Source: Veillonella rodentium (GTDB taxonomy: Bacteria > Bacillota > Negativicutes > Veillonellales > Veillonellaceae). From it: a stretch of 64,000 nucleotides of DNA. The notes beneath the pieces are model-generated. The model was not told the origin of the DNA. It worked only from the letters and a program-made list of their open reading frames with translations, and searched no databases. Shown in pieces: positions 47,522 through 53,399 of this stretch. Both the position numbers and the translations under genes were made by a program. The stretch spans positions 1,007,501 through 1,071,500 of the forward strand of contig NZ_LT906470.1 in the NCBI RefSeq assembly GCF_900187285.1, given 5' to 3'. Each line of letters starts with the position of its first letter. Position 1 is the first letter of the stretch.

Positions 47522-49129
47522 ATGAAAAAGAACCACACCAATAAATTTAATTATACCAAACTAGCGATGCCTCGCCAACTAGTTTTACCATTGGAATATG
47601 GCCTTTTGATAAAAGAAATAGCGCCTGTGCGGTTACTCGATGCTGTATTGGAGGAATTAGACTATACAGAGTTACAGCATTTGTATTCTCCTAACGGGAG
47701 AAAATCTAAAGTTCCACCGCACATTCTGTTTAAGATTTTTGTCTATGCTATGTCCAACGGCGTGTATTCTACACGTATGATCCAACAACAATGCGAGGAA
47801 AATATTAATTATATGTGGCTACTACAAGGTTATGCTACCCCCAGTCATATGACGTTTCAACGATTTTTTGCACGTTGTACGCTAGATATACTCATGAATT
47901 TATTTTCGCAGATAATGGAAACGATTGCGAGACGTGACACACTAACCTTTAATGAAGTATTTATTGATGGGACCAAGCTAGAAGCTAATGCCAATAAATA
48001 TACGTTTGTATGGCGTAAAGCTGTAGAGAAAAAGCTATCTATGTTACCCACTAAATTATCTGTACTCAAGCAAGATATCTGGAATGAATTGGGCTTAGAT
48101 GCATTTTATATGAACGATGAATTTGTATATACCTTTTTAGCTAAAGAAATTGAAGTACGGCATATGGTGTTGGTACAAGGGAAAGGCAAGCATAAAACAC
48201 CGTTACAACGTTTGTACGAACGAGCAGAATCCTTATATGAGAAGCGAAAAGAATACGAACAGCAATTGTATATTATGGGTGAACGTAACAGTTACTCTAA
48301 AACGGATCCTGATGCTACGTTTATGCGTATGAAAGAAGACCATATGCGTAATGGACAGCTTAAGCCTGCTTACAATATACAATTGGCTGTTCATTTTGAA
48401 TATATTATGGGAGTTGGTGTATTCCCTAATCCTAATGATACCAATACATTAATTCCGTTTGTACAACAATTAGAACGACTTCACACACAACATTTCAAAT
48501 ATGTAGTGGCAGATGCCGGCTATGATAGCCATGAAAACCTAACGTGGTTAAAACACAACCAGTATCTATCTTGTATAAAACCACAGTATTATGAAAGACA
48601 AAAGACTAAGGTATGGACTACCGATATTGGTAAAGCTCGTAATATGCAATATATACCGGAAGAGGATTCGTTTATATGTGCTAAAGGGCGCCAATTAAAA
48701 TATGCCTATACACGTAACATTAAAAAGAAAACAGGATTTGTATCTGAGCGAAAGGTATATATTTGTGAATCCTGTAACCGATGTGGATACAAAAAAGACT
48801 GCCAACCGTATGCGAAACAGACAACAGTAAATCCTATAAAGAGAATTGAGATTACCCCTGCTTATGATGCCGTATTGGCAGAAAACCAACGTAGACTGCT
48901 TAGTGATACAGGTGTCCAATTGCGGATTAACCGCTCCATTCAAGTGGAAGGTACATTTGGTGTCTTAAAACAGGATCTTGGATTTAGACGTTTTTTACAT
49001 CGAGGGACTGGTAAAGTACATAAAATGTTGTACCTATTAGCGATGGGATTTAATCTTACAAAACTACACAACCGAATACAAGCAGGACGAATTCATACAA
49101 CAGTATTCACCGTAAAAGGAACTGCTTAA
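47522..49129 (+). CDS. IS1182-family transposase
   Basis: DDE transposase of 535 residues. The first Asp is in VFIDGTKLEANANKYTF, the second in YVVADAGYDSHENLTW and the Glu in IQVEGTFGVLKQDLGFRRFLHRG. The N-terminal domain has the usual PPHILFKIFVYAMSNGVYS. A Cys-containing zinc-ribbon-like part (ICESCNRCGYKKDC) sits between the second Asp and Glu. There is no clear RBS; a TATAAT lies only 6 bases before the ATG, so translation may be kept low. The frame is intact. Confidence 0.92.
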   Translation: MKKNHTNKFNYTKLAMPRQLVLPLEYGLLIKEIAPVRLLDAVLEELDYTELQHLYSPNGRKSKVPPHILFKIFVYAMSNGVYSTRMIQQQCEENINYMWLLQGYATPSHMTFQRFFARCTLDILMNLFSQIMETIARRDTLTFNEVFIDGTKLEANANKYTFVWRKAVEKKLSMLPTKLSVLKQDIWNELGLDAFYMNDEFVYTFLAKEIEVRHMVLVQGKGKHKTPLQRLYERAESLYEKRKEYEQQLYIMGERNSYSKTDPDATFMRMKEDHMRNGQLKPAYNIQLAVHFEYIMGVGVFPNPNDTNTLIPFVQQLERLHTQHFKYVVADAGYDSHENLTWLKHNQYLSCIKPQYYERQKTKVWTTDIGKARNMQYIPEEDSFICAKGRQLKYAYTRNIKKKTGFVSERKVYICESCNRCGYKKDCQPYAKQTTVNPIKRIEITPAYDAVLAENQRRLLSDTGVQLRINRSIQVEGTFGVLKQDLGFRRFLHRGTGKVHKMLYLLAMGFNLTKLHNRIQAGRIHTTVFTVKGTA

Positions 49130-49586: not shown

Positions 49587-52500
49587 TTACGCCCCGAAGA
49601 GTGACATTTGTTCGTCTTCAGGCAATTCACCACAGCATTTGAGGTCTTTCATAAGATCAATGATAGTATTAGATACTTTACAACGTCGTTGCAAGTCCTT
49701 CAAGGACGTAAACGGTTTTTGTTCCCGTTCCTCTACTATGGCATCAGCAACCTTCTCACCCAATGAATCAATAGCTAAAAACGGCGGTAATAAGGCACCG
49801 TCCTTAATACTGAAGCGTCGAGCCTGCGAGTGCTGTATATCAACATTGCTGAATCGATAGCCTCGCTGGTACATTTCCATCGATACTTCTAAAGCGGACA
49901 TAAGATCTTTTTCTCTCGGGCCGGCAGCTTTATCCAGAGCTTTTATCCGATTAAATTCAGCTAACTGGGTCTTAAGGTCCCCTGTCATAATTCGTAAATC
50001 AAAGGCCTTCGCCCGAATAGAGAAGTACGCCGCATAAAATGCAAGCGGATGATAAACCTTAAACCATGCGATACGGAACGCCATCATTACATAGGCCACC
50101 GCATGGGCTCTGGGGAATAAATAAGAAATCTTTTTACAGGATTCAATAAACCATTCCGGAATATTATTATCTCGCATTTCCGCTTCAAATTCCGTCGTTG
50201 CCTCACCTTGTTTATTCCGCTTTTCAATACCCTTACCTTTACGGACATTTTCCATAACAAAAAAGCTATGTTTCCTGTCCATACCGCGATGAATAAGAAA
50301 GTTCATGACGTCATCACGGGTAGAAATAGCTTCATTCAATTTACAGGTTCCATTTTTAATGAGATCCTGTGCATTATCAAGCCATACATTAGTACCGTGA
50401 GAAAATCCAGAAATACGAACCAAGTCGGAAAATGTTTGTGGTCTTGAATCCTCAAGCATACCGCGTACGAATTTCGTCCCGCATTCCGGTACAGCAAGGC
50501 TCGCCACCTGATCCCCCTGTAATTGTTCGGGTGTTAATCCGATTCCCTCCGTAGATGAGAAGAGACTCAATGTCTTCGGATCATCAAACGGTATCGTTTT
50601 CGCATCTATACCTGTTAAATCCTCTAACATCCGAATAATAGTCGGATCATCATGGCCGAGAATATCAAGCTTCGTCATACGCCCTTCGATAGAGTGATAA
50701 TCGAAATGTGTTGTAATAACACCGCTATCCTTTTTATTCGCCGGATATTGAATCGGCGTAAAATGATGCACATCCATATCACGAGGACATACCATGATCC
50801 CCCCCGGATGTTGTCCCGTCGTATTCTTAACATTTGTGAAGCCTTTGGCAAGATTCTCGAAAAAACCGTTTCGAGCCTGTATTCCACGCACTTCGGCATA
50901 TTTTTTTACATAACCGAAAGCCGTTTTATCCGCAATAGTACCAATGGTACCTGCTTTAAATACATTATCACGTCCGAATAGTTCCTCCGTATATTTATGG
51001 GCCTTTGCCTGATAATCACCGGAAAAATTAAGGTCGATATCAGGTACCTTATCCCCTTCAAATCCGAGGAAAATAGCAAACGGAATATCGTGACCGTTGG
51101 TTTCTAGATCATGACCGCATTCAGGACATTGTTTACGAGGCAAATCAAATCCGCCCGCATATTCGCCATTTTCAAAGAATTGCGACCACTTGCAATGCGG
51201 ACATACATAATGGGGAGGCAACGGATTAACCTCCGTGATTTCTGACATGGTAGCCGCAAAGGATGAGCCTACGGATCCACGGGAACCAACAAGATACCCG
51301 TCATCAAGTGATTTTTTTACCAACTTATGAGCGATATAGTACAATACGCCGTATCCATTGGTAATGATACAGTCCAGTTCATAGTCCAGACGCTCCTGTA
51401 CGACACGTGGCAACGGATCTCCGTAAATCGCCTTCGCATTGCGATAACACATTTCTGTAAAAGCCTCATCGGCACCTTCGATTTTCGGTGAATATGTTCC
51501 GTCAGGAACAGGCTTAATCTCTTCGATACTGTCATTGATAGCTCGTGTATTCGTTACGACTACTTCATAGGCTTTTTCCGGAGTCAAATAAGGGAATGAT
51601 GCCAACATTTCATCGGTTGTACGCAAATGCAGGTCCGGTTGCTCATCAGCATCAGGATAGCCGCATGCGGTAAGCATAATTTCACGATAGATTTTTTCCT
51701 CCGGATGCAAGTAATGTACGTCACAAGTAGCGCATACAGGTTTATTCAATGCTTCACCAAGCTCTATAACAGTCTTATTCATGTCGATAAGAGCTTGTTC
51801 GTCAGGCATCAATCCTTTACGAACCAGGAAGGTATTATTCGTATGCGGTTGAATTTCCAGATAATCATAGAAGGACGCGACTTGTAGCAATTCTTCTTTC
51901 GTCGCCCCTCGAACGATGGACTGCATCAGTTCACCGGCTTCACAGGCGGAGCCGATAATGATTCCCTCTCTATGTTCTTCAATGACGGAACGAGGAATAC
52001 GAGGACGAACCTTGTAATGTTCCAGATGAGAAATAGAAATCATCTTATAGAGATTACGAAGACCTACCATATTTTTCGCCAACAGAATAATATGATATCG
52101 TTTATCCTTAACCTTCGGTTTCTTCTTATCTAATACAGGCTCTTCATCACGTTCTACGGTAGCATCATCAATGAGATATCCTTCCACACCGTAAATTACC
52201 TTAACGCCCAATTCCTTACCGAGGGCTTGCGCTTCAGGAAATGCCTGTACTACACCGTGATCAGTAATGGCCACGGCCGGATGACCCCATTTTTTTACGG
52301 TTTTAAAGAGATCTTTAACGGAAACGAGAGCGTCTTTATCACTCATCTTCGTATGTAAATGTAACTCGACTCGAGAATCCGGACGGTCTTCCGAACGTTC
52401 AAAGGTACGATCCACTTCTTTAATACTACGGATAGATAAAACAAAATCTTTATCGAAGCGCTCTTCATAGGCCACATTTCCCTGTACCATAACGGTTTTA

Positions 52501-53399
52501 AGACCTTTAAGCTGCTTTAATAATTTATCGCCATCCTCAGGGGAATCTGTAAATTTGATAAATTTCATGCTATTCGTTTTATCGCAGATACTGCCAGAAA
52601 CAATGGATTTTCCTGTCCGCGTATCCCGTTTTTCAAGTCCTACAAATACGCCTTCGAAAATAACACTGTTTTCATTGGACTGAACGGACATAATCGAAAC
52701 CGGATCTCCGTCAAAGCGTGGACCTACAATCATACCTTCGTCAGGAGGCATCTCCTTCGATGCACGACGAGGATATTTTCCGTCTCCATTACAAGCCTTT
52801 ACAGCCCCTTTTGAATTCCTCCCTTTAGATGACAGAGATTTCGTGCCGGATTTCTTTTGACCACTGCTGATAGATGCAACCGTATTACCTTGCGTTGATG
52901 CCGCTGCAGTTTGTGATGGCATCACAATGGGACTATTGTCAAAATACCCTAATTCTACGGCCTCGACGAAAGGAGCAAAATCGTCTTCATCATATTCATC
53001 GTAACAGTCTCGATGACTCTCCGTTTCCGAATCCTGTATGCCTGCAAATGATTGCCCGTATTTAGGACGCAATGCGGCTTCTTCCTCTTCCCGACGAGCT
53101 TCCGCCTCCTCAATCCATTCACCGGCACCACAGCCGCCACCGTAATAATACGTGTCTAGTCCTTCTCCTGTTTCAGTGTCAACCTTCCAGGCAAAGCAGC
53201 AAGCCGTATCTGTATTTGTAGGAATAGCATCAAAGGAAATATTTTTTTCCTCATACCATCTAGTCAATCGCTCACGAAGACTTAACAATGTTGTAAAAGC
53301 TGAATCTGCAGCTTGAATGGTGACTTGTTGACTATGGCAGTTCACATAAAACGAAGATTTTTTATTCTGTTTTGGTACAACACGATAACGTACTTTCAT
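49587..53399 (-). CDS. polC: DNA polymerase III PolC-type, lacking the exonuclease insert
   Basis: Replicative polymerase alpha subunit of the Firmicute PolC type. The order is: unusual N-terminal region (1-230) with an acidic/low-complexity stretch at about 95-145, an OB fold (about 230-330), PHP from residue 343 (RVELHLHTKMSD), palm with PDIDLNFSG and LDILGHDDPT, a zinc-binding CPHC / CPECG pair, and a C-terminal HhH part. Normal PolC has a DEDD 3'-5' exonuclease inserted in PHP, starting after VEGYL. Here residues 411-434 are only a short charged linker (DDATVERDEE...), then RYHIILLAKN continues. So this 1270-residue protein probably has no intrinsic proofreading. Gene order comEC-holA-polC is leftward. 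Confidence 0.95.
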   Translation of the reverse strand: MKVRYRVVPKQNKKSSFYVNCHSQQVTIQAADSAFTTLLSLRERLTRWYEEKNISFDAIPTNTDTACCFAWKVDTETGEGLDTYYYGGGCGAGEWIEEAEARREEEEAALRPKYGQSFAGIQDSETESHRDCYDEYDEDDFAPFVEAVELGYFDNSPIVMPSQTAAASTQGNTVASISSGQKKSGTKSLSSKGRNSKGAVKACNGDGKYPRRASKEMPPDEGMIVGPRFDGDPVSIMSVQSNENSVIFEGVFVGLEKRDTRTGKSIVSGSICDKTNSMKFIKFTDSPEDGDKLLKQLKGLKTVMVQGNVAYEERFDKDFVLSIRSIKEVDRTFERSEDRPDSRVELHLHTKMSDKDALVSVKDLFKTVKKWGHPAVAITDHGVVQAFPEAQALGKELGVKVIYGVEGYLIDDATVERDEEPVLDKKKPKVKDKRYHIILLAKNMVGLRNLYKMISISHLEHYKVRPRIPRSVIEEHREGIIIGSACEAGELMQSIVRGATKEELLQVASFYDYLEIQPHTNNTFLVRKGLMPDEQALIDMNKTVIELGEALNKPVCATCDVHYLHPEEKIYREIMLTACGYPDADEQPDLHLRTTDEMLASFPYLTPEKAYEVVVTNTRAINDSIEEIKPVPDGTYSPKIEGADEAFTEMCYRNAKAIYGDPLPRVVQERLDYELDCIITNGYGVLYYIAHKLVKKSLDDGYLVGSRGSVGSSFAATMSEITEVNPLPPHYVCPHCKWSQFFENGEYAGGFDLPRKQCPECGHDLETNGHDIPFAIFLGFEGDKVPDIDLNFSGDYQAKAHKYTEELFGRDNVFKAGTIGTIADKTAFGYVKKYAEVRGIQARNGFFENLAKGFTNVKNTTGQHPGGIMVCPRDMDVHHFTPIQYPANKKDSGVITTHFDYHSIEGRMTKLDILGHDDPTIIRMLEDLTGIDAKTIPFDDPKTLSLFSSTEGIGLTPEQLQGDQVASLAVPECGTKFVRGMLEDSRPQTFSDLVRISGFSHGTNVWLDNAQDLIKNGTCKLNEAISTRDDVMNFLIHRGMDRKHSFFVMENVRKGKGIEKRNKQGEATTEFEAEMRDNNIPEWFIESCKKISYLFPRAHAVAYVMMAFRIAWFKVYHPLAFYAAYFSIRAKAFDLRIMTGDLKTQLAEFNRIKALDKAAGPREKDLMSALEVSMEMYQRGYRFSNVDIQHSQARRFSIKDGALLPPFLAIDSLGEKVADAIVEEREQKPFTSLKDLQRRCKVSNTIIDLMKDLKCCGELPEDEQMSLFGA

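Follow-up and report, generated by a model that had tools for sequence, protein, structure and literature searches.

The textbook PolC carries a proofreading DEDDh exonuclease (Exo) inserted in its PHP domain. To our knowledge, replication by PolC together with DnaE1, the arrangement of Clostridia and Negativicutes, has seen scarcely any experimental study. A PolC variant without Exo has been known since 2013; in the portion of the survey by Timinskas et al. cited here, Exo-less proteins made up 6% of PolCs and were confined to Clostridia and Negativicutes, save one extra copy in Thermotogae (PMC3919608). The proofreaders of PolC plus DnaE1 systems have been described in a 2026 survey (PMC12926913). 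In Mycobacterium tuberculosis DnaE1, the PHP exonuclease relies on nine metal ligands, the Exo of PolC is inserted in a loop lining the PHP active site, and this loop measures 29 residues in M. tuberculosis DnaE1 and 18 in Taq (PMC5636811). For PolC itself, the PHP domain of the G. kaustophilus enzyme has a mutated ligand and no exonuclease activity (PMC5636811), and all metal-coordinating residues have been noted in the PHP domain of PolC1 from the Negativicute Sporomusa ovata (PMC4632017). In the literature on PHP proofreading no demonstration of exonuclease activity was found for any PolC PHP domain, and a literature search for PolC activity in Veillonella found no publication.

The window analysed here, a 64,000-nucleotide stretch of the Veillonella rodentium genome, carries on its minus strand polC (49587–53399), encoding a PolC-type DNA polymerase III alpha subunit without the Exo insertion. 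The frame is uninterrupted (1270 amino acids, zero internal stops), and the protein scored well above the cut-offs of both NCBIfam equivalog models for PolC, with 1469 bits for NF001688 (cut-off 873) and 1350 bits for TIGR01405 (cut-off 1043). The match to each model fell into two parts, of which the principal one began past the Exo segment. Pfam identified PHP, palm/NTPase, fingers and HHH domains in that order, and no RNase_T/DEDD domain was found in the protein by the same search. The PHP domain itself (about residues 344–590, 51630–52370; PF02811 at residues 345–517, extended by alignment to PolC and DnaE) is uninterrupted. The palm catalytic motif KVPDIDLNFSG (residues 784–794, 51018–51050) includes PDIDLNF, which is invariant in Exo-bearing and Exo-less PolCs, and is accompanied by the second palm motif, GSRGSVGSS; the protein ends in a clamp-binding-type motif, EQMSLF (residues 1263–1268, 49596–49613). 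Its PolC counterpart in Veillonella denticariosi is 98% identical. Just downstream of polC lies a 535-amino acid ORF resembling a DDE transposase (47522–49129, plus strand).

At the site where Exo would be inserted, the window protein has a linker of residues 411–434 (52100–52169, minus strand), which matches the DnaE-type PHP active-site loop in the alignment. It falls between E406 of GVEGYL and H436 of RYHIILLAKN, which are separated by 29 residues, against 198–216 in Exo-bearing PolCs; the DEDDh exonuclease that most PolCs have at this site is about 212 residues long. The initial annotation had described an intact frame with OB, PHP and palm regions in which this linker replaced the inserted exonuclease, and the unbroken ORF, the Pfam domains and the structural match described below all agree with it, as do the linker coordinates. 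All nine PHP metal ligands were recovered by alignment, giving the complete set HHDHEHCDH, in agreement with the pattern HHDHEH[C/H]DH of alpha subunits with PHP-type proofreading: H347, H349 and D356 in HLHTKMSDKD (52332–52361), H381 in ITDHG (52257–52259), E406 in GVEGYL (52182–52184), H436 in RYHIILL (52092–52094), C486 in GSACEAG (51942–51944) and D560 and H562 in TCDVHYL (51714–51722), all on the minus strand.

An AlphaFold2 model of residues 230–1270 had a mean pLDDT of 87.6, and residues 419–429, within the linker, formed its only internal segment with a pLDDT below 50. The model matched the G. kaustophilus PolC structure 3f2b from the OB domain, which lies N-terminal to PHP, to the end of the protein (Z 45.7, rmsd 2.6, 988 residues), as compared with Z 31.6 for M. 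tuberculosis DnaE1 (5lew). The 3f2b construct, in whose sequence Exo is skipped, was crystallised with DNA; the PolC core therefore folds without Exo. A further explanation, that a deletion or assembly error had removed Exo in the window genome only, had been raised by the initial annotation as a point to check. The source genome is a single contig of 2.04 Mb with 99.98% completeness, and the independent assemblies of 13 further Veillonella genomes show an identical architecture, with PolC frames of 1221–1294 amino acids and the same gap. These data exclude an assembly error or a spurious indel; nothing was found in favour of an artefact, and its probability is negligible.

The Exo-less state of the window PolC is class-wide in Negativicutes, and Exo-less PolC is common in the phylum. 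Alignment with other Negativicutes PolCs, as proposed at the outset, showed the state to be common to the 13 congeners and the rest of the class. In a search of 300 Negativicutes genomes, the full-length PolCs among the matches listed were unbroken across the linker, with frames mostly of 1170–1320 residues; an Exo-bearing PolC (genome G319) was instead matched by this query in two separate pieces. The segment between E406 and H436 is bimodal in length among the aligned PolCs, with 12–39 residues in Exo-less and 198–216 in Exo-bearing proteins, and a single Exo-less outlier has a low-complexity segment of 84 residues. A spread sample of the phylum was then scored, whereby Exo-bearing proteins matched the whole profile (frames typically 1380–1510 residues) and in Exo-less ones the match started after the Exo segment. 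PolC exceeded the model cut-off in 144 of the 199 genomes; counted by hand from the tabulated matches, these comprised 81 Exo-less and 56 Exo-bearing proteins, 1 with a decayed Exo and 6 that were truncated.

To follow how Exo came to be absent, an unrooted tree of 79 PolC cores was built with the insertion site left out. Exo-bearing and Exo-less proteins were intermixed, requiring 9 parsimony changes, at least 3 of them forced by strongly supported branches. A single clade of all Exo-less PolCs fitted worse by 157.7 lnL units, and one origin of the Exo-less form was rejected by the AU test (p-AU 8.1e-5). Exo segments were intact in 40 of the 42 examined. One of the exceptions, L137, retains an Exo remnant of 198 residues in which the catalytic DEDHD has become AAGAE, i.e. 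a dead Exo; in L138, of the same genus code and 90.6% identical in the PolC core, Exo has been deleted and 39 residues remain, and a member of the same family code, L146, has an intact Exo. The second dead Exo (L235, catalytic residues NVEG-) is from an uncultured Clostridiales MAG. Because the trees are unrooted, loss rather than gain was argued from the homologous insertion position and from these dead-Exo intermediates. The simplest reading of the sequences is that Exo was shed repeatedly, as a secondary loss, and the view that the Exo-less PolCs of the phylum have all simply kept the ancestral form was rejected, since both dead Exos argue for loss. Some deep lineage may nevertheless have lacked Exo from the start, the trees being unrooted. 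The lineage of the window PolC would have lost its DEDDh insertion long ago, with what remains at the insertion site probably being a DnaE-like PHP active-site loop.

With Exo absent, the initial annotation had left a choice between a separate DnaQ-like protein and no proofreading. The absence stands, but the choice was incomplete, as the PHP site with its nine intact ligands had been overlooked. The complete nine-ligand site is present in 107 of 113 scorable Exo-less PolCs. Of 30 Exo-less genomes, a selection in which many lack any relative of the stand-alone exonuclease described below, 14 had no RNase_T/DEDD family match, several of these being single-contig assemblies, so proofreading cannot in general be assigned to a separate DnaQ. 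The PHP sites of PolC and DnaE1 were both intact in 14/14 of these genomes, and among the known kinds of replicative proofreader PHP is therefore the only one found there; from this we infer the same role for the window PolC. The best explanation, and a probable one, is that the window protein is a functional PolC that lost Exo long ago and whose own trinuclear-metal PHP exonuclease would proofread PolC products, in the way seen for M. tuberculosis DnaE1 and for the alpha subunit of Thermus Pol III. DnaE1, encoded in the same genome, would provide a second proofreader through its own PHP site, which is intact in 28/28 Veillonellaceae genomes, and in this family some assistance may come from a stand-alone DEDDh exonuclease tethered to the clamp. 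Part of the ligand conservation could be due to the metals having a structural role.

A clade within the family of the window PolC has changed further. In six species of one genus code (L031–L036; genomes G070, G175, G132, G151, G163 and G124), PolC is Exo-less and the aligned PHP ligands read HHNHEHCNH, with D-to-N changes at two positions. These changes equal D23N and D226N of M. tuberculosis DnaE1, each of which alone abolishes exonuclease activity (PMC5636811). The palm motifs and the DnaE1 PHP site are intact there. In this clade PolC has persisted with a PHP site that is no longer canonical, so strict dependence on PHP proofreading is not universal. With Exo deleted and these two ligands changed, there is a somewhat better than even chance that PolC in these Veillonella-related species (VA137, VA139, VA142, CHU740, 3310 and 3891; genus code g3) is without any working exonuclease, with proofreading of PolC-copied DNA either wholly in trans or absent; if so, the exonuclease centres of PolC have been shed successively in Veillonellaceae. 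This D-to-N double loss is the part of the results that a specialist may not expect. Two genomes of the genus (G163 and G175) also encode an additional DnaE-like polymerase (L268 and L269), 35–36% identical to DnaE1.

In the same clade PolC evolves faster and DnaE1 not clearly so, with outgroup-to-tip distances of 1.14–1.16 versus 0.79–0.98 in relatives for PolC and of 1.04 versus 0.89–1.02 for DnaE1. This asymmetry would fit a division of labour in which PolC is not the main replicase and does not proofread, the genome being copied by DnaE1 with its intact PHP site. The DnaE1 PHP site was intact in every genome checked, and DnaE1 as replicase was raised for PolC plus DnaE1 systems in the cited portion of Timinskas et al. 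(PMC3919608). However, the palm motifs and PHP ligands of PolC hardly vary among Exo-less lineages; this would not be expected of a dispensable enzyme that does not proofread, and we consider this division of labour improbable.

The initial annotation had also allowed for an exonuclease elsewhere in the protein and had suggested looking for a stand-alone DnaQ-like enzyme. A genome-wide PF00929 search found three DEDD domains, none of them in PolC: an insert in a UvrD-like helicase, a KapD-like protein and a stand-alone DEDDh exonuclease of 209 amino acids with a C-terminal QMSFF (G000:C1:489418–490044; L002 1489–2118, plus strand). The helicase is UvrD/PcrA-like (L001 868–3456, minus strand; G000:C1 about 1833939–1836527), has its DEDDh domain inserted at about residues 490–660, and frames of comparable size are found repeatedly in Negativicutes. 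The 209-amino acid exonuclease has D8, E10, D93, H146 and D151 invariant in 20 sequences. It is not a relocated PolC Exo, a candidate origin rejected on scores of 215 bits for PRK06195 against 79 bits for PolC Exo.

This enzyme is a possible accessory proofreader, and it could be supposed to do the whole task in trans, tethered to the sliding clamp through QMSFF, a sequence reminiscent of sliding-clamp motifs. The enzyme is present, with conserved DEDDh residues, in 28/28 Veillonellaceae genomes, and the tail, which is similar to the C-terminal EQMSLF of PolC itself, is kept as Q[ML]SFF in 22/28 although the linker ahead of it has diverged. Its best curated family, however, is PRK06195, at 215 bits well under the cut-off of 373; relatives outside Veillonellaceae lack the Q[ML]SFF tail, and the protein itself is missing from many Exo-less genomes. 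The tail reads QDTFF or QDAFF in the clade with the mutated PHP site, where the need should be greatest. Proofreading mainly by this route appears unlikely, if less so than DnaE1 as the sole main replicase, and proofreading by the PHP domain of PolC is preferred.

The initial observation was thus correct and its interpretation incomplete; the variant it described was already known, and the case for PHP proofreading is one of conservation. It yields a testable proposal, namely that PHP may suffice for PolC without DEDDh proofreading and that an intact PHP site allows Exo to be lost. The window family and its relatives form a natural series (Exo present, dead or deleted; PHP intact or mutated) for apportioning the mutation rate among proofreaders. 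For PolC annotation and the development of PolC inhibitors, an Exo domain is not to be assumed in this phylum.

The window protein is filed as an Exo-less PolC variant. It is kept inside PolC because published surveys, on the evidence of the cited portion of Timinskas et al., keep Exo-less members there (PMC3919608); a DEDDh Exo in PHP is a hallmark of typical PolC architecture, not of the PolC clade. The variants in that portion resemble it in having OB, PHP, Pol3 and HhH domains, no Exo in PHP, a co-resident DnaE1 and the same taxa, but made up 6% of PolCs there (PMC3919608), against 81 Exo-less to 56 Exo-bearing in the phylum sample here. Repeated loss of Exo, with a dead-Exo PolC beside a deleted-Exo sister, is new here; repeated loss, dead-Exo intermediates and a tally of PHP and DnaQ were not found in the same portion of that survey (PMC3919608). 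The 209-amino acid exonuclease shares the DEDDh active site of E. coli DnaQ (epsilon) and PRK06195-type exonucleases but differs in its length and QMSFF tail, and no alpha-binding segment was identified in it. Canonical PolCs (B. subtilis and G. kaustophilus 3f2b) share the domain order, palm motifs, C-terminal clamp motif and fold of the window protein, which differs from them in having no DEDDh insertion; D560 is intact in the window protein, against one mutated PHP ligand in G. kaustophilus PolC (PMC5636811). With M. tuberculosis DnaE1 and Thermus Pol III alpha it shares the nine ligands and a PHP loop that has no insertion and is similar in length (PMC5636811), but it is a PolC by sequence, and its PHP exonuclease is a predicted one.
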